From positions 2,418,001 through 2,482,000 of the forward strand of contig NZ_JHZX01000001.1 in the NCBI RefSeq assembly GCF_000688335.1: a DNA stretch of 64,000 nt, read 5' to 3'. Of the stretch, positions 23,987 through 50,733 are shown in pieces. The notes under the pieces were generated by a model, which made no database searches, had not been told where the DNA came from, and saw only the letters and a list, made by a program, of their open reading frames with translations. The position numbers and the translations under genes were made by a program. Source of the stretch: Sediminibacter sp. Hel_I_10 (GTDB taxonomy: Bacteria; Bacteroidota; Bacteroidia; Flavobacteriales; Flavobacteriaceae). Position 1 is the stretch's first letter, and each line of letters opens with the position of its first letter.

Positions 23987-24060
23987 GGTCTGGTAGTTCA
24001 GTTGGTTAGAATGTCGCCCTGTCACGGCGAAGGTCGCGGGTTCGAGTCCCGTCCAGACCG
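23987..24060 (+). tRNA. tRNA-Asp (anticodon GTC)
   Basis: This is a 74 nt cloverleaf with acceptor stem GGTCTGG/CCAGACC, discriminator G and no encoded CCA. The anticodon loop is CTGTCAC on the stem TCGCC/GGCGA (anticodon 24021-24023), and the T arm contains GGGTTCGAGTCCC. It is the attachment site of the integrative element to its right. The left copy keeps an intact gene, so integration has not harmed it. Confidence 0.97.
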
Positions 24061-24065
24061 CTCAA

Positions 24066-24108
24066 TTGCTAAAAAGCTTCAATGTAAATTGGGGCTTTTT
24101 TTTAGCAA
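24066..24108 (+). terminator. Terminator of tRNA-Asp (inside attL)
   Basis: TTGCTAAAAAGC pairs with GC-TTTTTTTTAGCAA in a hairpin right after the tRNA. The same structure is repeated at 46751-46793 in the right copy. Confidence 0.7.
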
Positions 24109-24128
24109 TATAATGACGTTGTGTTGTT

Positions 24129-24231
24129 CCCATAGAGATATGGGAGTTGTAAATACCCAATGCGATTGGGTGCTTACCAATGAAAGGCTTTCCTTTTCCG
24201 AATCTTCGGAATTGGGATGCTTTTTTGTTTT
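24129..24231. other. Three tandem perfect hairpins plus T-run inside attL
   Basis: CCCATA-gaga-TATGGG (24129-24144), ACCCAAT-gcg-ATTGGGT (24155-24171) and TTCCGA-atct-TCGGAA (24196-24211) follow one another and end in a T-rich tract (24221-24231). The block is present again at 46814-46916. It looks like a structured RNA or a relic of another mobile repeat rather than coding DNA. Confidence 0.45.
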
Positions 24232-25774: not shown

Positions 25775-26968
25775 ATGAAACTGAATATATTATTTTTACT
25801 ATCTAAGTCAAAAATCAATTCAACAGGCAACGCTCCAGTTAGATGCAGGCTAACCTTTCAAAAAATGAGAAAAGAGTTTTCCACTGGAGTATTTATAAAT
25901 GCTAAATTTTGGAAAAGTAAGCAACAACTAATAGATACCCAAGAACCCGACGCTGAATTAAAAAACACTCAATTGAGCCTGATAAGAACAAATCTTAGTC
26001 AGGCTTTTTTATTTTTACAGGTTAAAGGAACTCAATTTACAGCAGATGACATTTATAAAAAATATAAAGGAGAGACACCTAAAAAAGATTTTGGTGTTAT
26101 GGAAGTCTATAACTTGCACAGTGATAGAATTAAGAAGCTTGTAGGCATAGATATCAAGGAAGTAACCTATTCAAAATACATAGAATCTGGTAGACATCTA
26201 AAATCATTTATTAAATTCAATTTTAAATCTAATGATATCCAATTAAAGGCTCTTAAGAGTAGTTTTCTAAAACATTATGAATACTTCCTTAAAACTGAAA
26301 AGAAGTTCCAGCAAAGCACACTAAACAAGGCTATACAAAGGTTTAGGAAGGTGATTAAATATGCTGTTTCTGAAGATTACTTAGACAAAGATCCATTTAT
26401 ACTTTATAGGGCTAAACGTATTAAAAAGGAAGTTATATTTCTTTCTCCTGAACAATTAAAAAATCTGGAAGAAACAAAGTTTGAAATTAAAAGGATAGAG
26501 CAGATTAAGGATATGTTTGTTTTTTGTTGTTATACAGGTCTTGGTTTTAGTGAAATGAAAGAATTGAAGAAAAGAGATGTGTCAATTGGATTTGATGGTG
26601 AAGTTTGGTTAAATGTCAGAAGATCCAAGACAAATAGGAGATATAATGTACCATTATTGCCTAAAGCTAGAGAGATAAAAGATAAATATTATGATGAGGC
26701 TTCGGATTATGTATTTCAAAGCATATCCAATGCTAAATTCAACGCTTATCTAAAAGAGATCGCTGATATTGTAGGGATTGAATTTAATTTAACCCATCAT
26801 ATAGCCAGAAAGACTTTTGCAAGTACCGTGTTGCTTTATAATAATGTGCCAATTGAGATTGTAAGTAAGTTACTTGGGCATTCTAAAATACAAACAACAC
26901 AGGATAGTTATGGAAAAATAGTAGAGAAACAGATTAGTCTAGAGATGAAAAAATTAAAGGGGAGGTAA
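25775..26968 (+). CDS. Tyrosine recombinase (integrase) of the element
   Basis: The 397-residue protein has an N-terminal arm-binding region, a SAM-like core-binding domain (about 110-210) and a catalytic domain. The catalytic lysine is in RRSKTNRRYNVPL, the HxxR motif in LTHHIARKTFAS, the third histidine in LGHSKIQTTQDSYGKI, and the tyrosine nucleophile follows in the same motif. The first catalytic arginine is not present: the region reads CCYTGLGFSEMKEL. Loss of that Arg is known in IntDOT-type recombinases of Bacteroidota. It is expected to integrate and excise the element at tRNA-Asp. Confidence 0.93.
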   Translation: MKLNILFLLSKSKINSTGNAPVRCRLTFQKMRKEFSTGVFINAKFWKSKQQLIDTQEPDAELKNTQLSLIRTNLSQAFLFLQVKGTQFTADDIYKKYKGETPKKDFGVMEVYNLHSDRIKKLVGIDIKEVTYSKYIESGRHLKSFIKFNFKSNDIQLKALKSSFLKHYEYFLKTEKKFQQSTLNKAIQRFRKVIKYAVSEDYLDKDPFILYRAKRIKKEVIFLSPEQLKNLEETKFEIKRIEQIKDMFVFCCYTGLGFSEMKELKKRDVSIGFDGEVWLNVRRSKTNRRYNVPLLPKAREIKDKYYDEASDYVFQSISNAKFNAYLKEIADIVGIEFNLTHHIARKTFASTVLLYNNVPIEIVSKLLGHSKIQTTQDSYGKIVEKQISLEMKKLKGR

Positions 26969-28706: not shown

Positions 28707-29756
28707 ATGACATACTATAAAACATCACATCAAGTCAACTATGGCAAAAGAATAATACCTCTTAAGATGATTGAACATATGTCGTTTGATGATTGGGAAG
28801 AATTTATTGAAGAATGGATTGAAATAAAAAAATCCGAGTATAATGAAGCTGAAAGGTTTGGAGGTGCTGGTGATAAGGGAAGAGACGTGGTTGGATATGT
28901 TTCTGACAAGCACAAAGCCAACTATATTTGGGATTGTTATCAATGTAAACATTACGATAGTGCATTAACTCCAACTCAAGTATATAAAGAATTTGGTAAA
29001 ATTTTATATCACACTTTTCAAAAAGAATATCCTAAACCTAGAAAATTTTATTTCGTTTCGCCTAAAGGTTGCGGAACTTCCCTCTCCAAATTATTGCAGA
29101 ATCCCACGGAATTAAAGGAAGCTATCAAAAAAAATTGGGTTAGGTATTGTGAAAATGATATATCTAGCAAACAAGTTATATTAGAAGGGGAACTACTGAA
29201 ATGGGTAAATAATTTTGATTTTTCAATATTTAAAAAAATTCACACCAAAAACATTTTAAAAGAACACATTAATCATCCAAATCATCTGATAAGGTTTGGT
29301 GGAGGGTTACCAGAACGTGAAAAATTAGATACGAGCACAATTCCTAGCTCGATTCAAAATTCTGAAACGATATATGTAAATCAATTACTATCTGCTTATG
29401 CTTCTGAAAGCAATGAAAATTATAAAAAGGTAGAAGAACTAGATACAAAAAAGCTTTATAAAAATCATTTTAATAGGGCAAGAATCAGCTTTCATCACGC
29501 AGAACAATTAAGAAATTTCTCTAGAGATAGTTTACCTATTGACACTTTTGAAGACTTTCAAAAAGAAATATTAGGTGGTATTATTGATATTGTTGAAGAC
29601 GAACACTCTAATAGTTTTATAAAAGTAAAAGAAGCGGAAAAGGAGGCTCGTAAAATTGTAATCTCTTCAAATCCTTTAAAGGATGTAAGTATTATCAATG
29701 ACCGAAGCGGAGTATGTCATCAATTAGTTAATGATAAAAAAATTAAATGGATATAA
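28707..29756 (+). CDS. ABC-3C system protein with N-terminal PD-(D/E)xK nuclease-like domain
   Basis: This 349-residue protein is the first gene of a three-gene operon. Residues about 20-140 carry the Mrr/PD-(D/E)xK-like signature: a glutamate-rich helix FIEEWIEI, GAGDKGRDVVG (Asp60) and CYQCKHY (Gln79, Lys81). The remaining region (about 200-349) fits the C-terminal domain typical of the signalling/effector component of ABC-three-component systems. Its expected job is to cut nucleic acid when the coupled ATPase senses invasion. The stop overlaps the next start as TAATG. Confidence 0.8.
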   Translation: MTYYKTSHQVNYGKRIIPLKMIEHMSFDDWEEFIEEWIEIKKSEYNEAERFGGAGDKGRDVVGYVSDKHKANYIWDCYQCKHYDSALTPTQVYKEFGKILYHTFQKEYPKPRKFYFVSPKGCGTSLSKLLQNPTELKEAIKKNWVRYCENDISSKQVILEGELLKWVNNFDFSIFKKIHTKNILKEHINHPNHLIRFGGGLPEREKLDTSTIPSSIQNSETIYVNQLLSAYASESNENYKKVEELDTKKLYKNHFNRARISFHHAEQLRNFSRDSLPIDTFEDFQKEILGGIIDIVEDEHSNSFIKVKEAEKEARKIVISSNPLKDVSIINDRSGVCHQLVNDKKIKWI

Positions 29757-30238
29757 TGGAAAATAGTAAAAATATAAATCCATTCAATAACAGTGTTGAA
29801 TCTGGTCTTAGAATGTTAACTATTTTGAATGAAGCATTTCCTAAATCATTTGATTTACAAAACCTTGTTTATCTAGATTATCTAACAATTCATTCCGCAG
29901 ATATTGATAAATCAGCAAAAAGCCTTCATCCTGCGGTACCTTATCGTTCAGGTGAAATAATGGTTAGAGGTTCAATTATTGAGAAAGGACTCAGCCTTTT
30001 TGTCGCAAAGAATTTAATCGAAAAACAATATAATATCAATGGCATAGAGTATAAGGCAACAGAGAATGCAATGCCATTTCTCGAGTCACTTGAAGAAACA
30101 TATTCAATTGAACTTCAAAATAGAGCAAAATGGGCTATTGATAAATTTTCAAAGCACACTAAACAAGAACTAAAAAACATTATGACTCCAAAATTATCAG
30201 AGATAGACAATGAGTTTAATATTGAAATTTTACAATAA
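29756..30238 (+). CDS. ABC-3C system middle component
   Basis: The 160-residue protein (start at 29756; an in-frame ATG at 29747 is less likely, since TAATG coupling recurs at the next junction) has the middle-component pattern NSVESGLRMLTILNEAFPKSFDLQNLVYLDYL and IHSADI...LHPAVPYRSGEI. That signature is known from the MC2 type of ABC-three-component systems, where it is thought to bridge ATPase and effector. Its winged-helix-like fold is an inference. One-base overlaps on both sides show strict coupling. Confidence 0.8.
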   Translation: MENSKNINPFNNSVESGLRMLTILNEAFPKSFDLQNLVYLDYLTIHSADIDKSAKSLHPAVPYRSGEIMVRGSIIEKGLSLFVAKNLIEKQYNINGIEYKATENAMPFLESLEETYSIELQNRAKWAIDKFSKHTKQELKNIMTPKLSEIDNEFNIEILQ

Positions 30239-32049
30239 TGAAAACAGGGTTTATTTTAAAAGAGTTAAGACTGGCAGGGGATTCTGTTGAAAAAGCAAGT
30301 ATAGTTTTTGAAAAAGGTGTTAACATCATTACCGGTCCTTCCAATGTAGGCAAGACTTTTATATTTCAATGCTTAAACTATATGTTTGGCGGTTCAAAAC
30401 CTCCAAAGCCTATTAAACAAGCAAGAACCTATGATTTTATATATCTGGAAATTATAGATTCCCAAAATGACCATTTTACTTTATTAAGTGATTTAAAAGG
30501 TGGGAATTTTAAACTCTACAATTCAAGTATTGATAACATTAAAGAATCTGAAGAATTTGAAATACTTGATAGAAAACACAATCCATCTAGCGAGAAAACT
30601 GTTTCTGCTTTTTTACTAAAATTAAATAATTTAACTGGTAAAAAAATCAGAACGAATCAAAAAGGTAAAACTAGACAAATTTCATATCGAGATATTGTCA
30701 AATTCTCTATGGTTAATGAAACTCAAATAACTACGGAGGATTCTTTAATAGTTAGTCATTATACCAAAGTAACGGAAGAGTCTAATGTTTTGAAATTAAT
30801 TGCAACAGGCAGAGACGATAGTACCGTTATTGAATCTCTATCTCAAAATCAACTAGCAAATAGAAAAGGGAAATTAGAAATACTTAAAGAATTTATAATT
30901 GAAAATGAAAAAGAACTTAAAACTTATAAAGTTGAACCTTCTTTAATTCTCGCAGAAACTAATTCCGTAATAGAAAAATTAAGCGAAAAACACTCTAGCC
31001 TTCAAAATAAATATAACGAAATAGAGAGCAAAAGAATGGAAGCCTTAGAAATACTGTACATAAGGCAATCAAGAAGGAGAGTAATTGAGGAATTGTATAA
31101 AAGAACAGACCTTTTAAAGTCACATTATCATTCAGATGTTGCCCGTTTAAAATCAACCATAGAAACAAGTGTTTTATTAAACGAAGAGAACCACTCTGCT
31201 AACGGTAATTGTCCACTTTGTAATGGAGAAATTAAACAAGAATGTTCAATTGCTGATATCAAGAAAATAATCGATTCTTGTAGCACAGAAATACAGAAAA
31301 TTGAAACATTACTTCAAGAACTAATTGAATCAGAAAAAGTTCTTAAGGAAGAGTTTAATGATATCTCCAAGGCTGTTTTAAGTTTAGAAAAAAACATAGC
31401 CGACTATACTTTAGAACTTGATAAAGGTGTTGGGTTAGAAATGGGTTTTATCATTGAACAAATTAATCTAGAAAACGAAAAGAAAAGTATAGTTCTTGGG
31501 GCATTGTATAAATTTGAACAATTAGAGAAATTTAAAAAAGAAAAAGAAAAATTAGAAAATTCACTACCTAGTCCTAGTTCTAAAGAATCTTTTGAACATA
31601 TCACAACTGCATCATTAACAACACTTTCAAAAGCCTTAAAATCAGTACTTGAGGGCTATAATTATCCGAACTTAACGGATGTTAGTTATAGTGAGGAACA
31701 AAATGATTTTATTATATCTGGAGAGAATAGAAATCTATCTGGTAAAGGTTATCGAGCAATTATTTATTCCGCATTTATTGTAGCTCTACAAGAGTTAATA
31801 TCTCAAAAAGACTACTCAATAGGTGTACCCATTTTGGACTCTCCGTTAGTCACATATCGTAAACCTGAAAATGAAGGAGAGATTACAATAAGTGATGATT
31901 TAGCAATGGATTTTTATAGATATGTAACCTCTAAAAACGAATTAGATCAGATAATAATAATTGAGAACGAGGAACCACCAATAGATATAATAGATAAAAT
32001 AAATCACATAAAGTATAGCAAAAAGAATGGATTTATTCCCCAGAAATAA
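30238..32049 (+). CDS. ABC-3C system ATPase (Rad50/SbcC-like)
   Basis: The 603-residue protein has a Walker A loop GPSNVGKT (33-40), a long coiled-coil insertion with a CPLC zinc-hook-like motif (Cys325, Cys328), a signature-like segment NLSGKGYRAI and a Walker B GVPILDSPL (Asp534). This is the SMC/Rad50-type architecture of the ABC-ATPase of three-component conflict systems. It probably recognises foreign DNA structure and licenses the nuclease encoded two genes upstream. It is the last gene of the operon. Confidence 0.85.
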   Translation: MKTGFILKELRLAGDSVEKASIVFEKGVNIITGPSNVGKTFIFQCLNYMFGGSKPPKPIKQARTYDFIYLEIIDSQNDHFTLLSDLKGGNFKLYNSSIDNIKESEEFEILDRKHNPSSEKTVSAFLLKLNNLTGKKIRTNQKGKTRQISYRDIVKFSMVNETQITTEDSLIVSHYTKVTEESNVLKLIATGRDDSTVIESLSQNQLANRKGKLEILKEFIIENEKELKTYKVEPSLILAETNSVIEKLSEKHSSLQNKYNEIESKRMEALEILYIRQSRRRVIEELYKRTDLLKSHYHSDVARLKSTIETSVLLNEENHSANGNCPLCNGEIKQECSIADIKKIIDSCSTEIQKIETLLQELIESEKVLKEEFNDISKAVLSLEKNIADYTLELDKGVGLEMGFIIEQINLENEKKSIVLGALYKFEQLEKFKKEKEKLENSLPSPSSKESFEHITTASLTTLSKALKSVLEGYNYPNLTDVSYSEEQNDFIISGENRNLSGKGYRAIIYSAFIVALQELISQKDYSIGVPILDSPLVTYRKPENEGEITISDDLAMDFYRYVTSKNELDQIIIIENEEPPIDIIDKINHIKYSKKNGFIPQK

Positions 32050-38119: not shown

Positions 38120-39655
38120 GTGATTTTAATTACCCTATATAGCACATTTATTTTGTGTGCCATAGGTAGGGTAGTATTAAAAATTATTATTAAAGTGAAT
38201 AAAGAAAATGAAAAAGAAGATGATGAGGATCTATTAATTAATTACAATTTTCAAACTAATATAAGTTCTAATAATCCTATCAATTATGTTACTGACCAAA
38301 ACTATCAATGTGAATTTGAAAGTAGATCAGATATAACAGGTAATTCAAGAGATTTTGAAACTAATAACCAGGTTGAAAATGATGTCACTTTCCCGATATA
38401 TTTATCAGATTATAAATGTATTCAAATCCCGAGGGGTATTAGAAGAGCTCTTAATAGATTACCAAAGAAGGTATTAAGAAAAATAAATTCAGATAAAGAT
38501 TTAGCCATTGAGAAATGTTTTATATTTATTTCAAACCTTACTTATAGTGTTTTTAGAGAAGATGAATTTTGGAAAAATCTTTCTTCAAAAATATTACATG
38601 ACCAATTAAAAACAGGTTCAGATAATACCTATACATATAAAAGAGTAATAGAAGCTCTATCCTATTGTACTAATACTACTTTTCCGATTATAGAATGTAG
38701 AAAAAACTCTTCTAATAACGATACCTATCAGGAGGGTAAGTATTCAAAACAATATAGACTTCATTATTCTTTCAAAAATCAAAATTTAGAGAGTATTAAT
38801 CTTGTTTATGATGATAATTTAAAAAAACGAAGAAAATATCATGTTGCTCAATGTAGTCAAGCTATTCAAAATTCAATTGGAAAAAATTTGATTAATGTAT
38901 ATTCAAAAATCACGTTACCAACAACTAATGAAATTCAAGAAAGAGCAAAAGAATTAATAAAATCGGGATATAAAAGCAAAAAAGGTAAGCTTCTCACATT
39001 TCTCAATAAGAAATCAAAAAATTATTATAAAGATGTTGAAAGTAGAACCTTTGTGGAGGAAAACTTGAAGCAATTTGAATATTTAGTTGGGAGTAACTAC
39101 CTAATTCCTAAAATTGGAGATTACAAGTCTGGCGGTAGAGTTGTGGATAGTTTTAACTTAATGCCCTCTTGGATAAGATCGATGGTTAAAATCGATTCTG
39201 AGCCAATCGTTGAATTAGATTTTATGGCTTTGCATCCAAACATAGCAATGTCATTATACGGCGGTGTGAAATATCAAATCACACATGAGGAAATTGCAAA
39301 TGATCTGAATAGAGAAAAAAATGAGGTGAAATTGGAACATCTGTCATTTTTTAATAAACGAGTGGAGGATATGAAGAGAAGTCCATTATTTGAATATTAT
39401 TTTAAAAGAGAAAAAAATATTTTACAAAAAATAATTATTGATAAAAAGTCAAATGGTTATAAAATTACATCTCAAAAATTATTCAAGAAGGAAGTAGAAA
39501 TTATGACCACTTGTGTTGAAGCAATAAATAGGCATAATATATATGTTCTATATGTTTACGATGCCTTATACTGTAAAGTTTCCGATAAGGTACAAGTATC
39601 TGAAATTATGAAGAGAAGCATAGAGAGCCATTTAATACATACTACAATTGGATAA
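38120..39655 (+). CDS. Large element protein with polymerase-like aspartate motifs
   Basis: The 511-residue product (GTG start at 38120) begins with a hydrophobic segment and an acidic, Asn-rich linker (to about 95). Residues about 95-260 look like a replication-initiator winged-helix domain (YKRVIEALSYC, YQEGKYSKQYRLHYSF). The C-terminal half has VELDFMALHPNIAMSLYGG and VLYVYDALYCKV. These resemble motifs A and C of palm-domain polymerases (Dx2SLYP-like and YD/HD). It is therefore a candidate replication protein, perhaps a minimal family A/B-like polymerase. It may end early: 27 more codons in another frame (39657-39740) could be its lost tail. Confidence 0.55.
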   Translation: MILITLYSTFILCAIGRVVLKIIIKVNKENEKEDDEDLLINYNFQTNISSNNPINYVTDQNYQCEFESRSDITGNSRDFETNNQVENDVTFPIYLSDYKCIQIPRGIRRALNRLPKKVLRKINSDKDLAIEKCFIFISNLTYSVFREDEFWKNLSSKILHDQLKTGSDNTYTYKRVIEALSYCTNTTFPIIECRKNSSNNDTYQEGKYSKQYRLHYSFKNQNLESINLVYDDNLKKRRKYHVAQCSQAIQNSIGKNLINVYSKITLPTTNEIQERAKELIKSGYKSKKGKLLTFLNKKSKNYYKDVESRTFVEENLKQFEYLVGSNYLIPKIGDYKSGGRVVDSFNLMPSWIRSMVKIDSEPIVELDFMALHPNIAMSLYGGVKYQITHEEIANDLNREKNEVKLEHLSFFNKRVEDMKRSPLFEYYFKREKNILQKIIIDKKSNGYKITSQKLFKKEVEIMTTCVEAINRHNIYVLYVYDALYCKVSDKVQVSEIMKRSIESHLIHTTIG

Positions 39656-39775: not shown

Positions 39776-40453
39776 ATGATAAAAATGAAGATGGAGATGA
39801 TGAAAGAAAATTATATTATTTATAAAGTATGCAATACTGTAAATGAATCAATTTATGTCGGTGCAACAAAAATATCGATCGATCAACGGCGGTTAGATCA
39901 TTTAAGTAGGGCTGAAAGAGATCATCAAAATAAATTTCAAAATGCTATCCGGACTTATGGTGATGAAGCTTTTGTATGGGAGCAGATAGACACAGCGCAA
40001 ACTGTAAATGAATTAGCTGAAAAAGAAAAGAAATATATTCTAGAATTTAAAGCTAAAGAAGATGGCTATAATTCTGACTCTGGTGGTGGTTTCAAAAAAT
40101 CAGTTTATAGATATGATTTGGAGGAAGGACATCTATTTGGGTCTTATAATTCCCTTGAAGAAGCTGGCAAAGTTATCGGTGCAACCAAACAGCAAATATC
40201 AAGAGCTTGTCTGAGTGTTAATAATATTTTTGGTGGCTACTATTGGAGTTATAATTTTATTGAACCTTTTGAGCCAAATTTAGATAGCAGAAAAAAACGC
40301 GTAGTACAATCTAATTCAGATGGGGAAGAATTAAGGGATTATATGTCAATTATGGAAGCATCAGAAGTTACTGGTGTAAATAGATCAAGTATAGCCAAAG
40401 TATGCCGAGGAGAACGTAATCATGCGGGAGGATTTGATTGGAGTTATAAATAA
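39776..40453 (+). CDS. GIY-YIG homing endonuclease with NUMOD1 repeats
   Basis: The 225-residue protein starts at one of several close ATGs (39776 to 39800). Its N-terminal GIY-YIG nuclease core has YIIYKVCN, YVGATK and the arginine-bearing helix RRLDHL, with a glutamate near EKEKKYI. Two NUMOD1-like DNA-binding repeats follow (SVYRYDLEEGHLFGSYNSLEEAG and VVQSNSDGEELRDYMSIMEASEVTGVNRSSIAKVCRG). This is the I-TevI/I-BmoI-type layout of phage homing endonucleases. It sits 120 bp behind the polymerase-like gene, a classical target neighbourhood. Confidence 0.88.
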   Translation: MIKMKMEMMKENYIIYKVCNTVNESIYVGATKISIDQRRLDHLSRAERDHQNKFQNAIRTYGDEAFVWEQIDTAQTVNELAEKEKKYILEFKAKEDGYNSDSGGGFKKSVYRYDLEEGHLFGSYNSLEEAGKVIGATKQQISRACLSVNNIFGGYYWSYNFIEPFEPNLDSRKKRVVQSNSDGEELRDYMSIMEASEVTGVNRSSIAKVCRGERNHAGGFDWSYK

Positions 40454-40640: not shown

Positions 40641-41192
40641 TTAATACCTTGATAAAAGATTAGATATTTGTTTCTGAATATCTGGTTTTGCACTAGGTAC
40701 TAAAATCAATTCACAATATTGCTTCAGAGATTTAATTTCAATTTCAACAATATGCTCATTGATTTTTATAAAATCTTCAAAAACAACATTTCTATCAATA
40801 TCTTTTTCTCTCAAAATATAACGTTTATATCTAATATCAATAGGCTCATCAATAAAAATAGACTTAAAATTCTCAAAGTTTTTTTTTAGTGAAAAAAAAA
40901 TATCGGTATGCCTTATTCCTTCAAACAATAAAATTTGACGTGGGTGAGGATTATAGTGCTCAATAACGTCTTTTAAAAACATATCCGCATCCTTTTGAAT
41001 AAAAGATTGCCCAATATCCTGAAGGATTTTACGGTTTTTCTCGTAAGAAATATTATTATTTTTACAATATTCCTTTAGGTAATCCCCAAAAGAAATAGTA
41101 AGGCAATTTGGATCTAATTCTTTTATTTTTTCTGCTATAGTAGATTTGCCAGAGCAAATTTCTCCTATTATTGCTATAACAATATTCTTCAT
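40641..41192 (-). CDS. P-loop nucleotide kinase-like protein (last gene of the seven-gene operon)
   Basis: The 183-residue protein is a small P-loop kinase: Walker A GEICSGKST (10-18), an early FGDYLKEYCK segment, LLFEGIRHTD after the second strand and a LID-like basic stretch RYKRYILREKDIDR. The layout recalls dephospho-CoA kinase or phage deoxynucleotide monophosphate kinases. In an operon with an ASCH protein and a methyltransferase-like enzyme, a modified-nucleotide kinase is a reasonable guess. Its start overlaps the ASCH stop by one base. Confidence 0.78.
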   Translation of the reverse strand: MKNIVIAIIGEICSGKSTIAEKIKELDPNCLTISFGDYLKEYCKNNNISYEKNRKILQDIGQSFIQKDADMFLKDVIEHYNPHPRQILLFEGIRHTDIFFSLKKNFENFKSIFIDEPIDIRYKRYILREKDIDRNVVFEDFIKINEHIVEIEIKSLKQYCELILVPSAKPDIQKQISNLLSRY

Positions 41193-41716
41193 TATTGCAT
41201 TAGATTAAAGAATGTAGGCTTATTAGCCTGTTTAATAACAGACCAAGATGTTCTGTCTTTTTTCATAATATTGAAGCTATTAAAAGTAAACACTTTTTTA
41301 ACTTCAATTAATGTTATATATTTTGAAGTAGCTCTTTTTTGCCAAAAATTTTCATCTAGGCTAGCACAAATCTTATCATTATATTTTTCTTTTATCTGCT
41401 CTAGACGTAGCTTGTTGTTTATCCAATATTCTGTTCTACCAGCAACAAAAAAACCCATTATCAAACCTCCAGACTCTTTGATTAAAATTATATCTTTCTC
41501 ATAAACTTTTCTAAACGGATCTATTCGATTAACAGAAAATCTTGATTCTATTGTTTTCCTTTCTTCAAGAATAGCACTTAAAAAAGGTTCATTAAATATT
41601 GCAAGATGTACGCCTATTCCGCTGTTTTTTAAAACATCTTCTTTTATTAATTTCCAATCGTCATTTTCATTAAATAATACAATTAACTTATTAATTAGCG
41701 TCTCTTTCCATTTCAT
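41192..41716 (-). CDS. ASCH domain protein
   Basis: The 174-residue protein contains an ASCH domain at about 35-150: GVHLAIFNEPFLSAILEERKTIESRFSVNRIDPF followed by YEKDIILIKESGGLIMGFFVAG. The K-T-x-E-x-R core matches the group. ASCH domains are PUA-like; some bind RNA or modified bases and some (YqfB type) hydrolyse N4-acetylcytidine. It overlaps the upstream gene by 26 bp and the downstream kinase gene by one base. Confidence 0.85.
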   Translation of the reverse strand: MKWKETLINKLIVLFNENDDWKLIKEDVLKNSGIGVHLAIFNEPFLSAILEERKTIESRFSVNRIDPFRKVYEKDIILIKESGGLIMGFFVAGRTEYWINNKLRLEQIKEKYNDKICASLDENFWQKRATSKYITLIEVKKVFTFNSFNIMKKDRTSWSVIKQANKPTFFNLMQ

Positions 41717-42932
41717 AATATATATGAGCTAAGTAATCTTTATATTCTTTATCTTCTAAATTTATTATCATTTCAAACCAATCACAAACAAAATGGTTCT
41801 CTTCTTTAATTAGAATATTCCAGAATTTTTTAGGGTTATTTACCTTAAAAATCCTATTTCCGGTAGTCCAAACATTAGCTTCGTCTCTTATTTTTGTACT
41901 TCTACTTACGCTTGGTAATATATCTCCTTCTACCAGACTAGTAATTTTAATTTCCTCATCTTTTTCAATTTGATTTGAGTTAATTTTAACTCTTAATCTC
42001 ATAGATTCGATTTGCAGTTCTTCCCAATTATTTTTTTCTACTTCCAATTTAGGTCTTTTCGAATTTGTTTGCTCAACTTTTCTAAAAAACGCTAAGTCTC
42101 CTTTTCTCCAAAAAGGTAAAGTGTTGCTAACACCTGCTTGTCTGAAGGCATTGAATTCAAAAAAAGGCATTGCATATTCCAGTTTTTCTGGTTCTAATTT
42201 CTCTATACATAAGCCTTGTTTTTGACAATATGAAAACCAATCGATTCTCTCTTTATCGATTCTTTCTCTAGTATTAATTGGAGGTATGCTTATAACTAAT
42301 ACTCCACCTGGTAACAAACATTTGGATGCTAACCATACAAACTGATATAAAAAATTACTATACCATGGAGGATCCATAATAACACTATAAAATTTGCCTA
42401 TTTTATCTGGTTTTGCAGAAAAAATATCTTCTAGTATTATTTTAGAATTTTTCTTACTAAATTTTTCTAATGCTTCAACAATTGGTTTGTTTCTTTCTAC
42501 CAAGGTTACATTCTGAGGAATATTACGTTGATTACAGTTGGCATATAATGTAGGCATACCAAGCAAAAGGACTTTATCCGTTTTTCCGTTTAGATTCTCA
42601 ATTAGATCTGTTAAAAAATTTAAACTTTTCGCTGTATTTCTCCATTCAAAATCTAAAGGATGAGGATTTTTCAAGAAATTAAAATACCCCATATGTTTTT
42701 TTAAGTACAATTCTGAATCTTGATCAATTAAATCTAAGAATAATTCTTCATTTTTTATTTTGATAGACCAATACCCGTCTTTTTTAAAAATTTTATTTTC
42801 CTTTTCAAGCTCTTTAAGTAAATGGGAAATCTTAATTGGATCAAGTCCTCCCATTTTTTTTGATATAAACTCTAATGTTCTCGGCTGAGAACAAATCCTT
42901 ATGAGTGTATTTTTTAAATGATCCTTTTTCAT
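41691..42932 (-). CDS. Winged-helix plus Rossmann enzyme with DPPW motif (methyltransferase-like)
   Basis: The 413-residue protein has an N-terminal winged-helix domain (1-60), then a Rossmann-type domain with VLLLGMPTLYA, a ribose-binding-like VTLVERN and the catalytic-type motif DPPWYS (187-191). This is followed by LLPGGVLVISIPP. DPPW is typical of MT-A70-type adenine-N6 methyltransferases. The winged-helix plus DPP layout also recalls BpsA-type aminopropyltransferases, so aminopropyl transfer cannot be ruled out. The C-terminal 120 residues are unfamiliar. It overlaps the radical SAM gene by 4 bp. Confidence 0.72.
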   Translation of the reverse strand: MKKDHLKNTLIRICSQPRTLEFISKKMGGLDPIKISHLLKELEKENKIFKKDGYWSIKIKNEELFLDLIDQDSELYLKKHMGYFNFLKNPHPLDFEWRNTAKSLNFLTDLIENLNGKTDKVLLLGMPTLYANCNQRNIPQNVTLVERNKPIVEALEKFSKKNSKIILEDIFSAKPDKIGKFYSVIMDPPWYSNFLYQFVWLASKCLLPGGVLVISIPPINTRERIDKERIDWFSYCQKQGLCIEKLEPEKLEYAMPFFEFNAFRQAGVSNTLPFWRKGDLAFFRKVEQTNSKRPKLEVEKNNWEELQIESMRLRVKINSNQIEKDEEIKITSLVEGDILPSVSRSTKIRDEANVWTTGNRIFKVNNPKKFWNILIKEENHFVCDWFEMIINLEDKEYKDYLAHIYYEMERDAN

Positions 42933-43924
42933 AAACTAATCTCTGTAATAGGTTTTTCTAGAAGATTAATATCATATCGTTTGTTCAGCTCCTTAGTCCA
43001 AACTTTAATTGCATCATACTGGCCTTTGATTAAATCTCTATTTTGATCATTCATCCTAGATATGACTGGTGTAAACTCAAATACTTCTAACGGGACTATT
43101 TTTAGAGGTAAATTTTCATGAATAGATTGAAGTTTATCCATAAAATATGGAATTACTTTATTAAAATTTGTTTTTGAAGAGGCGGTCAAAGTAATGTAAA
43201 AATACAAGTCAATTTTAAGTTCGATTAGCCTTTTAGCTAGTTCAAGTTGGTTGTTAAATAATGCAGGGGAGGCTTGCGTATTTAAGCTAAAAGAGTTGTC
43301 GTCTATTCCCTTAAAACAGCAAACTCTACCGTACATTTTATAATTTTTGATAAGATCAATGTTCTTATTGGTTAAAAACCTCCAGAAATAATCATTACTT
43401 AAATTATCATCAGACCATAAATAAATATCATTATCTAAACCTCTTTCGATTAGTGAATTCATCATCCAAGGAATCCACTCTGGTGTTAAGTCAGGCTGAC
43501 CTCCTGTTAAATCGATAACCTTTGACGGATTTTCTTCCTTTAAATATAGGTCCAATAATTCATCACAAGTCTTAAAATTAGAATATTTAGGACTTCCAGA
43601 AAGCAACTTAAAGTCTACAAAACAATACCAACACCTCCAATTGCAAACGGAGTTTTGGAAAACTTGTGCTCTAATTTCTTTGTTTGCATTTATGCCTAAA
43701 GCTCTGGAGGCAGGGAGAATGGGTAGGGGGTTATCTGGCCAATGTTCATTTCTATAATATTTAAAGTGTCTTACTCGACCGAAGCCCTCACAATTAGGTT
43801 TGTCTTTAATGTCCTTTTCTTGTTCAGAATTGTAAAAGTTAGTTATAGACACGGATTTTCTCTCTATATCTATACCTTTAATTCGTAAATTTTTTGAAAG
43901 TAAATCTGTGTCTATCAATTTCAT
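42929..43924 (-). CDS. Radical SAM enzyme
   Basis: The 331-residue protein has the cluster motif C94-x3-C98-x2-C101 (CNWRCWYC) and the SAM-binding GGQPDLTPEW. It has a long N-terminal region of over 90 residues (with KPNCEGFGRVRHFKYYRNEHW) before the cluster, and LKIVPLEVFEFTP near the end. The subfamily is unknown to me. Radical SAM enzymes do difficult C-H chemistry such as methylation, thiolation or ring formation. It lies between the DUF4186 and DPPW genes with a 1 bp gap and a 4 bp overlap. Confidence 0.85.
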   Translation of the reverse strand: MKLIDTDLLSKNLRIKGIDIERKSVSITNFYNSEQEKDIKDKPNCEGFGRVRHFKYYRNEHWPDNPLPILPASRALGINANKEIRAQVFQNSVCNWRCWYCFVDFKLLSGSPKYSNFKTCDELLDLYLKEENPSKVIDLTGGQPDLTPEWIPWMMNSLIERGLDNDIYLWSDDNLSNDYFWRFLTNKNIDLIKNYKMYGRVCCFKGIDDNSFSLNTQASPALFNNQLELAKRLIELKIDLYFYITLTASSKTNFNKVIPYFMDKLQSIHENLPLKIVPLEVFEFTPVISRMNDQNRDLIKGQYDAIKVWTKELNKRYDINLLEKPITEISL

Positions 43925-43925
43925 A

Positions 43926-44522
43926 TTAGTTTTCTAGAAGGTTAGGAATTCGATCTTTGGCATATAATAGAACAAGCTCTTTGAAAAATTCCAACTGTTC
44001 TTCAGTTAATTCATCTTCAGGTGGAATATTATGCCAAATTTCTATGCATTTTCTACAACAAGTGGCTGTGGCATGTTGAGCATAATTTATGATATCACCA
44101 TTTCCCATGGGAGTTTGTCTTCCATCCCAGAATGAATTATGTTTACCAACTTTTGACTTAAGAACTTTTCTTACTCTAATTTCTAGCTTTTCCATTCCCT
44201 CTTTTACGGCTTCATCTCTAGCTTGATCATCAATGTCAGTATGCCAAAAGACATGTCGAATTAATTCAGTCTTCATTTGGGAAAATATAAATTTCACATC
44301 CTTTAGATCTCTTTTATGAAGTCTATTCCAATCTATCAGATCTGTTCCGCATTCTCTGCAGACTCCTTTTTTGCCAAACTTTTTTATTGACGATTTCTTT
44401 AAACTAAAACAATGTAGTTTAGATTCACATTTTGTGCTTCCACACGTAATATCTAAAGGTGTTAAACTTTGGACTGGCACTTCAGCTGGAACCCTTGTGA
44501 ACTTTCCTCTTTTATTTCTCAT
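43926..44522 (-). CDS. DUF4186 family zinc-binding protein
   Basis: The 198-residue protein has two Cys clusters in its N-terminal part (CGSTKCESKLHC and CRECGTDL), which could bind zinc. The C-terminal DUF4186 signature is NYAQHATATCCRKCIEIWH with TEEQ after it. DUF4186 has no known function; its His/Cys-rich core suggests a metal site. The gene overlaps the peptidase gene by 4 bp (ATGA) and precedes the radical SAM gene by one base. Confidence 0.82.
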   Translation of the reverse strand: MRNKRGKFTRVPAEVPVQSLTPLDITCGSTKCESKLHCFSLKKSSIKKFGKKGVCRECGTDLIDWNRLHKRDLKDVKFIFSQMKTELIRHVFWHTDIDDQARDEAVKEGMEKLEIRVRKVLKSKVGKHNSFWDGRQTPMGNGDIINYAQHATATCCRKCIEIWHNIPPEDELTEEQLEFFKELVLLYAKDRIPNLLEN

Positions 44523-45721
44523 ATTGTATTAATTGCTTTAGAAAGCATATGTCTTTCTAATTTATTTAAATGATTATAATTAATTTTATCTATTAACTGA
44601 TCTTTTACTATTTTATATGGTAGAGGCTTTGTTATCTGTAATGAATTAGCAGTCCCCCACCAATTATCCCCTTCGATATTTAACCTGTAGGCAATATAAT
44701 TAGCCAGGAAATCTGGTCTAATATTCTCTTCTTCAGCAACACGAAGAACTGACTGTTTTAATCCTTGAATCCTTCCATTAGCGTTATCTACACATTTTTG
44801 TGCTAATTCCTCTGCTTTATTTCCAAATATTATTCCATTAGCAAAGGCATTAGCCTCTCTCTCCTCAATAGAATCATTAGCTTGTAATGGTGAAATTTCC
44901 TGTTCTTCAATAACTGATGAATTAGAATCTTCTAAGTGAACAAAGACATGATATAACTCATGCAGTAGATCAAATATCCATTTAGCATGAGAATCTGTTT
45001 TCTGTTTAAGAACAATGATATGTCTTTCTTCTATATTCCAACTAGCTCCATGAAATACTCCAGAGTCATTTAATGGTACTACACAAATGCCTAAATCCCA
45101 AACTGCTTTAAGTATAGATTCAATATCAAAATCCCCTTCTTTATTTGTGATTATAGCCTTAAATTCTTTAATGTCTTTTGGATATTCCTTTATGATGATG
45201 TCTTTACATCCAACAGATACAGTTTTTGCAATAAACTGTGCATAATGTGAATATGCATTTATTTGATGTATATTGGTATTAATAGGTTTTTTGAAAAATG
45301 CTTGACGCATTGGTGCTGTTGATATGCTTAAAACTTCATCGTTAATCAGAGATTCTCTACTAAAACCAAATATTTGAGATAAACAATCAATAGTCAATTC
45401 TAAATCCTCTGTGCTTCCTGTATTTGACGAAGGATAATTTGGGATAATTTTGTTTTTAATCAATTGACTAGGGAGACCATTTTTTGATAACTTTTTAAAT
45501 AATTCTTTCCAAGTAAATTTTATTTCGATTTTTGAACTTTGAGTTAAATCAATATTTGAAATAAATTCTAAGGCTTCATTCTCTAATTCTTCAATATCGT
45601 AGCCATTTTCAATCAAAATTGATTGAGCTGTATTTAAATCGGAACTTATTAAAGAAGATTCCGAGATAAAATATTTCTTTAAATCAGCTGTTTTTATTTT
45701 TTGGTTTTTATTTTTTTTCAT
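44519..45721 (-). CDS. ImmA/IrrE-family metallopeptidase
   Basis: The 400-residue protein has the zinc-peptidase motif HELYH at 254-258 and the third-ligand region EEREANAFANG (286-296), as in ImmA/IrrE proteases. The 200-residue N-terminal part is not a normal HTH, though it is probably helical. ImmA-type proteases cut XRE repressors to switch on elements, and IrrE-type ones cut DdrO. Here it is the second gene of the operon, six bases behind a sigma-like factor, so it may act on a regulator of this operon or on the element's XRE repressor. Confidence 0.85.
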   Translation of the reverse strand: MKKNKNQKIKTADLKKYFISESSLISSDLNTAQSILIENGYDIEELENEALEFISNIDLTQSSKIEIKFTWKELFKKLSKNGLPSQLIKNKIIPNYPSSNTGSTEDLELTIDCLSQIFGFSRESLINDEVLSISTAPMRQAFFKKPINTNIHQINAYSHYAQFIAKTVSVGCKDIIIKEYPKDIKEFKAIITNKEGDFDIESILKAVWDLGICVVPLNDSGVFHGASWNIEERHIIVLKQKTDSHAKWIFDLLHELYHVFVHLEDSNSSVIEEQEISPLQANDSIEEREANAFANGIIFGNKAEELAQKCVDNANGRIQGLKQSVLRVAEEENIRPDFLANYIAYRLNIEGDNWWGTANSLQITKPLPYKIVKDQLIDKINYNHLNKLERHMLSKAINTI

Positions 45722-45727
45722 GACATC

Positions 45728-46273
45728 TTAATTTAAGTTAGTGATTACTTTAATCTGCCTTCTTAATCTTTTTTGAATATTTCTTACTTCTTTTATATCT
45801 ATATCATACTTATCTGGTATATCTGATGGCTTCATTCCTTCAATTAGGGATTTGAATACCAGCCACATAGGTTCATCCTGAAATAAAGTTTCTTCAATTC
45901 TATCAATTAAATCATTCGTTATTATAATATCTTCTAATATTTCATCAAAAAATATTGAATCATTAAAATTTAGCATAATGGAATCCGAAAGTTTCTCTCT
46001 CTCCTTAGATTTCATTAGATTCCATATGAGACTGTTAACAACATTCTTTAGAAAATTCAATAGATCTGGTTCTTTGCTGGCATCCCATTTTCTTTTACCT
46101 TCAAAAAGTAATGTAACAGCTTCATGGGCAAAATCTTTATACTGTTTTCCCTGCATCCTAGATTCAGAATTCAACCTGAACCAGTTTAATCTATACACAG
46201 AATGGGCATATAGTTTTTTCATTATACAAACCCAATCGTGTTCTATTAATTGTTGCTTGAATTGCTCGTCCAT
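45728..46273 (-). CDS. Sigma-70-like (ECF-type) factor heading the seven-gene operon
   Basis: The 181-residue protein shows a sigma region 2-like helix set (YKDFAHEAVTLLFEGKRKWDASKEPDLLNFLKNVVNSLIWNLMKSKEREK) and a C-terminal region 4-like HTH (GMKPSDIPDKYDIDIKEVRNIQKRLRRQI). It is weakly similar to ECF sigma factors, and could be a sigma-derived DNA-binding regulator rather than a true sigma. It is the first gene of the operon, preceded by AGAGGAAAG as a fair ribosome-binding site. Confidence 0.65.
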   Translation of the reverse strand: MDEQFKQQLIEHDWVCIMKKLYAHSVYRLNWFRLNSESRMQGKQYKDFAHEAVTLLFEGKRKWDASKEPDLLNFLKNVVNSLIWNLMKSKEREKLSDSIMLNFNDSIFFDEILEDIIITNDLIDRIEETLFQDEPMWLVFKSLIEGMKPSDIPDKYDIDIKEVRNIQKRLRRQIKVITNLN

Positions 46274-46718: not shown

Positions 46719-46916
46719 TCGCGGGTTCGAGTCCCGTCCAGACCGCTCAATTGCTAAAAAGCTTCAATGTAAATTGGGGCTTTTTTTTAGCAATATAATG
46801 ACGTTGTGTTGTTCCCATAGAGATATGGGAGTTGTAAATACCCAATGCGATTGGGTGCTTACCAATGAAAGGCTTTCCTTTTCCGAATCTTCGGAATTGG
46901 GATGCTTTTTTGTTTT
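46719..46916. repeat. attR: right 198 bp direct repeat
   Basis: This is the exact copy of 24034-24231. It starts with the last 27 bases of tRNA-Asp, without the 5' two thirds, so it is a tRNA fragment and not a gene. It includes the tRNA terminator and the three-hairpin block. It directly abuts the terminator of the DUF6607 gene. Confidence 0.9.
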
Positions 46917-46988: not shown

Positions 46989-47897
46989 TTATTCTATCAC
47001 ATAAGAGTCTATCACGTCGTTTACAGTCTTGGTGTTAAATGTAAAGTCTTCTGAAAAGAAATGCGCGTATAAAGGCTTATGATCAACCTTATGCTCTAAT
47101 TTTAAATCTGACGCCCTTTCAAATACATTATCCCATTTGGCTCTAACAATAGCCCAATTTTTTTGGTTGTTCGCCCAATAGTCTTGCGCCACTTTACATT
47201 TGCTGTCTGCAACTTTTTTGTAAGTGTTGAGGCCTTTCTCCTGCGCCAGTAACACATCCTCTTTACCTTCGGTACGGATGACTTTATCATTGTCTTGATC
47301 ATGAATCCATCCTTCTTTAGTAATGGCATGTCTATTTCTTCTCACGGTGAGATTGTAGTCGTTTCTTTGGGTATACTCACGTCTTGGCAGTGGGGCAGAA
47401 GTGGTGTTTTCCCAAAAACTTTTGCCGTCTACATGCACCCAAGTAGCCGAACCTTCATATCTCGGGCTATCATCTACTTGAAAGACTTTTTGACTCCACT
47501 GTCCTTTAACGTCTTGCTTAGGCAATTGGGTATAGACCCATTGGTTATTGGCGTCATAGGTATACAATTGAGTATTTTCATACAGCCAATCCTGTCGCCA
47601 ATGTTTAACAACGCTAGGGGCACTAGGATTTCCAACAACAAGTAAATGCTGCATTACAATTTTATCGTTACTGTCCTCTACCAGTTCCACCCATTCTAAG
47701 GCTTTGTCGTGCTTTACTTCTGAACCTTTGTAGAGGGAATCATTAGAATATTCGAATGTTTCGGCAAAATCAAAGTTGACTTCAAAACAACCGCACATCT
47801 TTTTTATGGCCTCTTGATCTTTCTCTTTTTTGTCTTGTGCATGTCCAGTTAAGATGAACGCAAAAAGGCATACAGCTGATAATGTGATTTGTTTCAT
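46989..47897 (-). CDS. DUF6607 family exported protein
   Basis: From the ATG at 47897 the 302-residue protein starts with a signal peptide MKQITLSAVCLFAFILTGHAQ (an in-frame ATG at 47915 is possible). The mature part has KKMCGCFEVNFDFAETF, VKHWRQDWLYEN and GSATWVHVDGKSFWENTT, the pattern of DUF6607, a flavobacterial family usually found beside TonB receptors. It is divergent from the heme receptor gene and shares its control region, so a role in heme or iron uptake is likely. Confidence 0.85.
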   Translation of the reverse strand: MKQITLSAVCLFAFILTGHAQDKKEKDQEAIKKMCGCFEVNFDFAETFEYSNDSLYKGSEVKHDKALEWVELVEDSNDKIVMQHLLVVGNPSAPSVVKHWRQDWLYENTQLYTYDANNQWVYTQLPKQDVKGQWSQKVFQVDDSPRYEGSATWVHVDGKSFWENTTSAPLPRREYTQRNDYNLTVRRNRHAITKEGWIHDQDNDKVIRTEGKEDVLLAQEKGLNTYKKVADSKCKVAQDYWANNQKNWAIVRAKWDNVFERASDLKLEHKVDHKPLYAHFFSEDFTFNTKTVNDVIDSYVIE

Positions 47898-47945
47898 TTT
47901 TGATAGGTGATTCATAGTGATTAAATAATTAAAAATTTACTATTC

Positions 47946-47980
47946 TTATTTAGATTGAATTAAAATAACTTATATATTTG
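47946..47980. promoter_or_regulatory. Fur-like palindrome and -7 element before the heme receptor gene
   Basis: Bases 47946-47968 form an imperfect palindrome about a central G (TTATTT arm, AAATAA arm, with ATT/AAT inside), resembling an AT-rich Fur box. It directly precedes TATATTTG (47973-47980), the -7 element of the receptor gene. Iron-dependent repression is an inference. Confidence 0.5.
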
Positions 47981-47998
47981 CAGCAAATCTAATCAAGA

Positions 47999-50083
47999 AT
48001 GAGTCTAAATAAAAATAATATTACTCTTTATTTTGTATTTTTTTTCGTCACACTCGCTTTCTCGCAAGAACAGAAGAAGATCGATTCAGATACTATTCCT
48101 GCAGAACATTTAGAGGAAGTATTGATTACCGCTACACGAACTGTTAGACAACTATCATCATTGCCATTGCCCGTTCAAATTATTTCAAAAAAGGAGATAC
48201 AGGGTTCCAATAACTTGCGCTTAAGCGATATTTTAGGAGAGCAAACCGGATTAATTACTGTTCCCGATTTTGGAGGTGGAGAGGGCATTCAACTTCAAGG
48301 CCTTGATTCGCAATATACCCTGATTCTGGTGGACGGCGTCCCACTTATTGGCCGCTCCGCAGGAACATTAGACTTGAGTAGAGTGACCGTTGGAAACGTT
48401 CAGCAAATAGAAATTGTGAAAGGCGCTTCTTCTAGTCTGTATGGCAGTGAGGCCTTGGGTGGCGTTATAAATATTATTACAGATAAACCAAAAAAAGGAT
48501 TTGGCGGTCACCTAAATTATCGTTTAGGAACTTTTAACACCCATGACATCAGTAGTGCCATCAACTACAAAAAAGATAAGTTGGGAGCCAGTATATTTAT
48601 TAATCGGTTCAGTAGTGATGGTTATGACCTTTTCGATACTGATGCGCTCAACACGGTTGAGCCCTTTAGTAATTATACCTTAAACACAAAACTCACCTAT
48701 GATCTTACAGAATCTACAGATATTTTTATGTCTGCCAGATACTACTCCCAAAATCAGGATTTAATTGCTTCGGAAACATCCGCGGGAGAGAGTGATCTTA
48801 GGGAATGGAATACACATCTACAACTCAATCATAAGTACAGTGAGAAATGGAGCAGTTATTTTGAATTTTATGCCACGAGATATAAAGCGGACGAATTTTT
48901 AAATCAAACGGATGGCTCCAGGCTAAGTTCCTCTTTTTTTAATCAATTATTGATAAGGCCAGAAATTAGGGCCACCTATAAACCTAAAGCCAATAGGACT
49001 TTTATTGGCGGAGTTGGGTTTAATCATGAAACTCTTGACCGTACCGACTTTACAGATAAGCCCATCTTTAACTCGCCTTATGCCTATTTGCAATATGACA
49101 CCAACCCCACGAATAAGCTGAATATTATTTTAGGTGCTCGTTTTGATAGCCATAATGCCTATGCCTCACAATTTAGTCCCAAAGCAGCCTTAAGGTATGA
49201 GTTTAACGATAGACTAGCGGTGAAAGGATCTGTAGGTTATGGTTTTAAAGCCCCAGATTTTAGACAGCTCTATTTTAATTTTAGCAACGCTACTGTGGGT
49301 TATACCGTCTTAGGTTATAATGCGGTAAGTACAACCATTCCTCTGTTACAAGAGCAGGGACAAATTGCCAATATCATTGTTCCAATTTCAGAATTTGAAG
49401 ACCAATTAAAAACGGAAAGTTCCATAGGGATCAACTTAGGCGCAGATTATAAATTAAGCGCTTCCCTAACGTTGGGCCTAAATCTATTTAGAAATGCTAT
49501 TGATCATCTCATTGATACTCGGGTGATAGCCAATAAGACCAATGGACAAAACGTCTTTAGTTATTTTAATGTAGATCAAGTGTATACCCAAGGTCTAGAA
49601 TTTAATACAGCCTGGAAACCCAATAACCGTCTAAAAATTACAGGAGGTTATCAACTGCTATATGCTAAAGACAAGGGAGCTGAAAAAGCATTTGATAATG
49701 GGGAGGTTTTTGCCAGAGCGAGTCCGTCATCATCATCCTTTCAGCTTAACAAAAAAGATTACTTCGGTCTTTACAATAGGTCTCGGCACATGGCCAATTT
49801 AAAACTGTTTTATGCCATTCCCAAATTTAAACTAGACGCAAATATTAGAGCGACTTACAGAAGTAAATATGGTCTTATCGATAGCAATGGAAACGGATAT
49901 CTTGATAGCTACGATAGTTTTGTTTCGGGCTATTCGATTGTTGATGTGGCTCTCAACAAAAATATATTTCAAAACTATAAGCTTGGCTTTGGTTTTGAAA
50001 ACATCTTCGACTTCAAAGATCCACAAAACATAACCAATGTGCCAGGTCGAATTATCTACGGAAAACTTAATATTAAATTTTAA
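47999..50083 (+). CDS. TonB-dependent outer-membrane receptor, probably for heme (HmuR-like)
   Basis: The 694-residue protein has a signal peptide, a TonB box region (EEVLITATRTVRQ), the plug domain (LPLPVQIISKKEI, LDSQYTLILVDGVPLIGR, IEIVKGASSSLYGSEALGGVINIIT) and a 22-strand-type barrel with LGARFDSHN and FKAPDFRQLYFNFSN. It ends with an aromatic residue (KLNIKF), as barrels do. An HmuY gene follows 11 bp later, which points to heme as the ligand. Confidence 0.92.
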   Translation: MSLNKNNITLYFVFFFVTLAFSQEQKKIDSDTIPAEHLEEVLITATRTVRQLSSLPLPVQIISKKEIQGSNNLRLSDILGEQTGLITVPDFGGGEGIQLQGLDSQYTLILVDGVPLIGRSAGTLDLSRVTVGNVQQIEIVKGASSSLYGSEALGGVINIITDKPKKGFGGHLNYRLGTFNTHDISSAINYKKDKLGASIFINRFSSDGYDLFDTDALNTVEPFSNYTLNTKLTYDLTESTDIFMSARYYSQNQDLIASETSAGESDLREWNTHLQLNHKYSEKWSSYFEFYATRYKADEFLNQTDGSRLSSSFFNQLLIRPEIRATYKPKANRTFIGGVGFNHETLDRTDFTDKPIFNSPYAYLQYDTNPTNKLNIILGARFDSHNAYASQFSPKAALRYEFNDRLAVKGSVGYGFKAPDFRQLYFNFSNATVGYTVLGYNAVSTTIPLLQEQGQIANIIVPISEFEDQLKTESSIGINLGADYKLSASLTLGLNLFRNAIDHLIDTRVIANKTNGQNVFSYFNVDQVYTQGLEFNTAWKPNNRLKITGGYQLLYAKDKGAEKAFDNGEVFARASPSSSSFQLNKKDYFGLYNRSRHMANLKLFYAIPKFKLDANIRATYRSKYGLIDSNGNGYLDSYDSFVSGYSIVDVALNKNIFQNYKLGFGFENIFDFKDPQNITNVPGRIIYGKLNIKF

Positions 50084-50094
50084 ATACTTAACAC

Positions 50095-50733
50095 ATGAAA
50101 ACTATTAAAACCATTCAATCACTCGCATTAGCAGTACTATTTATAGGATTTAGTTCTTGTAGTAATGATGATGACAACGCAGCAGCTTTACTTGAGGTAG
50201 AATCTGAAAACGTTTCAAACCTTTATGCGCCGCAGTCTGGCGGACAGGGACAACCCGTAGGCGGTGACTTTACAAAATTTGATTTTGCTACCGGGCAAAC
50301 CACAACAAGCAATACCGATTGGGATATTGCCTTTAGGGGGACTGCAATTATTGTAAATGGCGGTACGTCTTTAGGTACTGCAGATGAGCCAGAACGCACT
50401 GGAGAAGCAGCTGCCTATATTATTGGAGGTACATTGGCCTCTGTTTCGCAAGTAGACCTTGCTTTGTTTGAACAGGATGATGAGACTGGATACGCCATTC
50501 CATCAGGTAGTAATAATGGCTGGTACAGTTATGCTGGAGAACCAACCCATTTAATCAACCCGATACCAGGAAAGATCTTGGTGTTTAAAACAAGAGACGG
50601 GCAATTTGCAAAAGTTGAAATATTGAGTTATTATGAAAATGCTCCAGAAAGTCCAAGCGCTTTTGAAGATGCAACGCCATATTATACATTCAACTATGTA
50701 TACCAACCTAACGCGGGTCTTACAACGTTTTAG
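50095..50733 (+). CDS. HmuY-family heme-binding lipoprotein
   Basis: The 212-residue protein has a lipoprotein signal ending FSSCSNDDDN. The HmuY fold is seen in the region FTKFDFATGQTTTSNTDWDIAFRGTAIIVNGG and GWYSYAGEPTHLINPIPGKILVFKTRDGQFAKVEILSYY. HmuY scavenges heme at the surface and gives it to the TonB receptor encoded just upstream. It is the last gene of the operon, followed by a terminator. Confidence 0.93.
   Translation: MKTIKTIQSLALAVLFIGFSSCSNDDDNAAALLEVESENVSNLYAPQSGGQGQPVGGDFTKFDFATGQTTTSNTDWDIAFRGTAIIVNGGTSLGTADEPERTGEAAAYIIGGTLASVSQVDLALFEQDDETGYAIPSGSNNGWYSYAGEPTHLINPIPGKILVFKTRDGQFAKVEILSYYENAPESPSAFEDATPYYTFNYVYQPNAGLTTF

Follow-up and report, generated by a model that had tools for sequence, protein, structure and literature searches.

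Prokaryotic viperins (pVips) are systems in which a radical SAM (rSAM) enzyme, sometimes accompanied by a nucleotide kinase, makes an antiviral nucleotide. Viperin converts an NTP to its ddhNTP, and to our knowledge no other radical SAM enzyme has a firmly established immune role. Defence systems based on dCTP deaminase and dGTPase also exist. The cassette described here, located in a 64,000-nucleotide stretch of Sediminibacter sp. Hel_I_10 (the window, meaning the whole stretch analysed), is like pVip in its radical SAM enzyme and differs from it by several additional conserved genes. Enzymes similar to those of the dCTP deaminase and dGTPase systems are optional here and lie outside the common core. 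With Dpd, Dnd and Ssp the cassette may share the general idea of multi-gene nucleic-acid modification, and an earlier note on this DNA had proposed a comparison with them; in the PADLOC library, which presumably includes Dnd, Ssp and Dpd models, the seven window proteins match none of these at E<=1.

A small gene followed by an HTH-M78 gene leads the operon in PD-lambda-2, in RmrA-type HTH-M78 modules and in CapH-CapP of CBASS, and likewise in the cassette. The downstream enzymes of those systems are unrelated to the present ones, and the window has a sigma-like gene in the place of the HTH. In PD-lambda-2, a small HigB-like gene (A) precedes an Xre-peptidase fusion (B), which was toxic on its own, a toxicity relieved by the first gene (PMC9519451). 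The M78 peptidase of the window matches the PADLOC models PD-Lambda-2_B (E 2e-8), RmrA and capP (E 4e-5). From the full PD-lambda-2 set (HigB-like A, HTH-M78 B, and C) the seven window proteins match the B model alone, and from CBASS capP alone, no CD-NTase model being listed for them. The PADLOC candidate PDC-M63 is matched from another locus: a DUF6932 protein encoded beside a related cassette (L020, the one scanned) matches PDC-M63A (E 2e-12), whereas the seven window proteins match no PDC-M63 model. Part of the regulatory half may therefore be on record as a defence candidate already. Apart from this partner, and as had been supposed, no named system for the whole set was found in PADLOC-DB 2.0.0 or in the literature searched, outside which lie most subscription papers and preprints.

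The operon and its integrative element

All seven ORFs of the operon (40641..46273) are present on the minus strand, and the junctions of +6, -4, +1, -4, -26 and -1 bp given in the earlier note were reproduced exactly. The first gene (45728..46273) encodes a 181-aa sigma-70/ECF-like protein, whose sole family match, TIGR02937, is under its cut-off (19.3 bits; cut-off 42.9; E 7e-4). It is followed by an M78 (ImmA/IrrE-type) peptidase (44519..45721) that retains HExxH, scores 22.6 bits with the Peptidase_M78 profile (cut-off 22) and gave no HTH match in the domain-family search. The third gene (43926..44522) encodes a DUF4186 protein, which passes PF13811 (79 bits; cut-off 25) and has an extra N-terminal Cys/His region and an invariant CCxxC. 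The rSAM enzyme (42929..43924) contains CxxxCxxC, its family score being slightly below the cut-off (27.4 against 29.5 bits). The DPPW gene (41691..42932), also slightly below the cut-off of its profile, PF10237 (21.8 against 23.2 bits), encodes a winged-helix and class I SAM-dependent transferase with a BpsA-like fold and a conserved C-terminal extension. The last two genes encode an ASCH-like protein (41192..41716; ASCH profile 14.2 bits, below the cut-off of 21.2), plasmid-borne orthologues of which carry the annotation 'ASCH domain-containing', and a P-loop NMP-kinase-like protein (40641..41192; AAA_18, PF13238, 35.8 bits, cut-off 29.4).

The DPPW enzyme had been taken for an adenine methylase of MT-A70 type. 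This assignment was rejected, as the MT-A70 Pfam matches 0 of 32 family members (E<=0.01). PF10237 matches 16 of the 32; BpsA_C matches one (E 0.0046), which is not the window protein. The nearest solved fold is that of BpsA, the branched-chain polyamine synthase, which transfers aminopropyl groups to polyamines, and both the winged helix and the transferase fold are present; identity is 13%, and the cassette enzyme has its own C-terminal extension. The profile of the kinase resembles the AdkA-like structure 3lw7 and UPF0200 3h0k over almost its full length, and weakly a PADLOC dCTPase model (E 9e-4). The rSAM enzyme matches the viperin model NF038283 (NCBIfam) in the rSAM core only and does not reach its cut-off (22.1 against 180 bits). 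Among 28 rSAM relatives this model matches 13 (E<=0.001, best 2e-5), the most of any NCBIfam model, and ArsS matches 12. The PADLOC pVip model matches the window rSAM with E 3e-5.

The cassette forms the final genes of a 22.7-kb integrative element in tRNA-Asp (23987-24061). The left attachment repeat (24034..24231) begins within the tRNA gene, and the right repeat (46719..46916) is perfectly identical to it over 198 bp; the element has a tyrosine integrase on the plus strand (25775..26968, PF00589). The genes of the right flank (46989-50733) are found together in two congeneric genomes, and in the stretches of 39.8 and 19.5 kb around them neither any gene of the element nor its left flank was found. 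The rSAM gene is absent from all 22 congeners searched. Two further matches of the rSAM query among 77 relatives, partial and with 25-29% identity (E 6e-4 and 7e-4), we take for other rSAM proteins.

The same element carries an HNH_4 protein between left repeat and integrase (24702-25727), a SRAP-family protein close to the integrase (27484-28215) and an ABC-three-component system (CTD6, MC2, AAA_23; 28707-32049), likely a second defence module. A 511-aa ORF at 38120-39655, without a Pfam match above cut-off or any match to PDB sequences, adjoins a GIY-YIG/NUMOD endonuclease-like gene (39776-40453).

Recurrence and variation of the gene set

Loci were collected from GTDB genomes with the rSAM query (n=54); by record titles they come from many phyla, the single archaeal one (L022) being a contig of a metagenome bin. 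Core genes were counted in the 36 loci whose flanks reach 5 kb or more upstream and 4 kb or more downstream, 18 loci with short flanks being dropped. Within 6 kb of rSAM these contain DUF4186 in 30, M78 in 30, DPPW in 30, ASCH in 33 and the kinase in 25 loci, the last being a lower bound because distant kinases escape a single-query search. The co-occurrence that the earlier note had suggested looking for is thus found in other genomes, with all six genes within 6 kb in 18 of the 36 loci. The constancy of rSAM itself is built in, since the loci were collected with it. In the reverse direction, DUF4186 was found in 5 of 395 Bacteroidota genomes. Four of these have rSAM, in each case at a distance of 40-900 bases from DUF4186, and the fifth lacks it. 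One of the four pairs has a dCTP-deaminase-like gene in between; as this deaminase is identical to that of L008, the genome is that of L008 or a very close one and does not count as an independent case.

Gene order and distances repeat across phyla, mostly on the strand of rSAM. For example, the overlap of 26 bases between DPPW and ASCH seen in the window also occurs in seven other loci (L002, L003, L004, L007-L010), and joined ORFs are found for DPPW-ASCH (L035, L039) and ASCH-kinase (L024). Pairwise divergence is correlated between the six genes (r 0.48-0.79; Mantel p 0.001 in each of 15 pairs), which fits joint inheritance, to which host kinship alone could contribute. Counting the window, the motifs are kept in 47/48 rSAM (CxxxCxxC), 44/47 M78 (HExxH), 37/37 kinase (P-loop), 42/42 DUF4186 (CCxxC) and 35/38 DPPW proteins. 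Alignments of five enzyme families put rSAM first in conservation, with a mean column identity of 54% (28 sequences) against 34-42% for DPPW, DUF4186, ASCH and kinase, whose sequence sets differ from that of rSAM. With this agreement of co-occurrence, order, joined ORFs and divergence, it is near certain that the cassette is a functional unit, as its coupled genes had suggested.

The set is rare. In the genomes sampled, rSAM was found in 4 of 395 Bacteroidota (its own genome counted), in 1 of 244 cyanobacteria (the centre genome itself) and on 7 of 72,556 plasmid records, 6 of the 7 plasmids being predicted conjugative. That the gene set is real, recurs and moves horizontally can be regarded as practically established.

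The genes leading the operon vary. The sigma-like gene is limited to the window, L005 and L006 (52-55% identity), where the M78 protein has 400-404 aa. Elsewhere M78 proteins, where complete, have mostly 465-530 aa, and both longer examples scanned (n=2) contain an Xre-type HTH; the gene ahead of M78 is of DUF6932 type in 25 loci and of DUF4160 type in 11. The sigma-like gene may be a local substitute for the HTH domain, one DNA-binding regulator replacing another. In the sigma/protease switch put forward previously, it is hence the peptidase that recurs and the sigma factor that does not extend beyond these three loci.

Other genes may be missing. L005, on a 1.37-Mb contig, has only sigma, M78, DUF4186 and rSAM. 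DPPW was not found with the window query in L005, L017, L027, L029, L030, L036, L041, L044, L045 and L046, in all of which sequence extends past the rSAM gene. DUF4186 had no match in 4 of 20 genomes searched (those of L039, L040, L042 and L052) and was not found within 6 kb of rSAM in L034 and L051. The rSAM match stands alone in L052 and L054, and the rSAM ORF called in L054 is without CxxxCxxC. These exceptions place rSAM, mostly with DUF4186, at the centre of the cassette, the other genes being frequent and not obligatory.

Neighbouring genes and possible functions

Nucleotide enzymes accompany a minority of the loci, the cyanobacterial cases being related to one another. A dCTP-deaminase-like gene is located between DUF4186 and rSAM in L008; in L025 one follows the kinase after about 450 bases, and in L037 a partial match of this kind adjoins the DPPW gene. 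An HD dGTPase-like gene lies directly downstream of the cassette in L014, L015, L016 and L021. A Nostoc plasmid (L059) has one on the opposite strand, with the annotation dGTP triphosphohydrolase. A MazG-like gene is found between rSAM and DPPW in L039. Three distinct nucleotide-enzyme families as optional partners point to nucleotide chemistry, and judged from gene content it is rather likely that the cassette acts on nucleotides.

The flanks of the cassette match 166 PADLOC families against 9 in controls from the same genomes (E<=1e-10; 129 proteins each, 16 loci), a count of families rather than proteins, in which several models overlap, one Argonaute matches many of them, and L013 and L016 are related; even so, the difference is large. 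The controls were arbitrary, not random, 13-17-kb stretches of the same 16 genomes; 4 of 20 intended stretches did not exist, and the loci concerned were left out. The ORFs used were 129 of 150 from flanks and 129 of 182 from controls, those of >1200 aa being excluded and the rest sampled. The small genes just upstream of most cassettes, which are likely partners, and one kinase homologue of L050 were left out of the flank set, and an M78 homologue (L050:16399-17838) was kept in it. Controls also match defence models, including a pVip. Among the flank matches listed (25 of the 166) are an Argonaute with a Cas4-like nuclease, type II methyltransferases, PD-Lambda-5_A and TnsB/TnsC/TniQ; for L013 the adjoining Argonaute and TnsB were both confirmed against the PDB. 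The gene set is probably a defence system.

Several neighbours recur or are otherwise distinctive. A conserved Argonaute-type gene stands beside the cassette in cyanobacterial loci L013 (where it is confirmed), L014, L015 and L016, with TnsB/TnsC-type transposon genes near the cassette in L013 and L016. VapBC genes and an annotated N-6 DNA methylase are found near L061, on a Rhizobium plasmid, where a DUF763 gene (L061:12330-13589) overlaps the end of the kinase gene, and CHAT-domain proteins near L062. In two actinobacteria, a longer kinase homologue and a RES-domain gene, divergent from the rSAM gene, are present (L042:7132-7812, by Pfam match, and its homologue L051:7254-7919).

The earlier note had also considered self/non-self marking; rSAM and DPPW would in that case hypermodify host DNA or RNA bases, ASCH would read them, and the kinase would recycle or supply the nucleotide. 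ASCH/PUA domains are described as readers of modified bases (PMC12839542), DPPW carries a winged helix, and such a scheme could include the methylase found near L061 and, near L003, an HNH_5 protein. However, the core has no recognised nuclease, protease control of the operon would fit induction better than constant marking, and the MT-A70, Dnd, Ssp and Dpd comparisons described above were negative; modification or marking of this kind is considered rather unlikely. The other part of the earlier proposal, nucleotide chemistry, is the one favoured by the optional partners.

The cassette could instead be a non-defence accessory pathway for a cofactor, a polyamine-like compound or a stress metabolite, which rides on mobile elements. 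BpsA, the fold nearest to DPPW, is a polyamine synthase, and DUF4186 also exists without rSAM (in 1 of 5 Bacteroidota matches and as E. coli yneG). Against this stand the rare and patchy distribution, the flanks richer in defence models than controls, and an HTH-M78 switch of the kind found in PD-lambda-2, and the accessory pathway is judged unlikely. An addiction module, with the upstream small gene and M78 as the toxin-antitoxin pair and the enzymes as toxin or antidote, would agree with the toxic and rescuing pair described for PD-lambda-2 and with the RES-domain genes beside L042 and L051; yet up to five more conserved enzymes with their catalytic motifs kept are more than addiction requires, and this origin is very improbable.

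The preferred reading, a regulated and probably antiviral mobile cassette for making or processing a modified nucleotide, comes as a whole to slightly less than an even chance, its defence role and its nucleotide chemistry being linked. In the putative order of steps, a protease switch responding to some presumed signal would control the operon, through the sigma-like factor and HTH-less M78 in the window and through HTH-M78 with DUF6932 or DUF4160 at other loci. The rSAM enzyme, mostly with DUF4186, would perform the central radical step, with a nucleotide or nucleoside as the most likely substrate, and the BpsA-fold transferase may attach a methyl or alkyl-amine group. The modified species would be bound or hydrolysed by ASCH and phosphorylated by the P-loop kinase, the final product interfering with replication of the invader. 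More tentatively, the cassette can be viewed as an undescribed immune system of many bacterial phyla and one archaeal bin, in which rSAM and DUF4186, under the protease switch, would make a modified nucleotide of a new type, perhaps carrying a methyl or amino-alkyl group, that blocks replication of the invader. If true, this would be a second radical-SAM-centred immune system, with a kinase, a transferase and DUF4186, moving between phyla, and would suggest the existence of a new antiviral small molecule or of a new mark on nucleic acids.

For DUF4186, a family of unknown function by annotation, the cassette also provides a context; the E. coli member, yneG, shares an operon with a glutaminase. 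The predicted structure of the DUF4186 protein has a pLDDT of 90.8, and no solved relative was found. By structure match, the DUF4186 model m46689b00572c resembles an uncharacterised protein of Pithovirus LCPAC001 (E 6e-5, TM 0.52).
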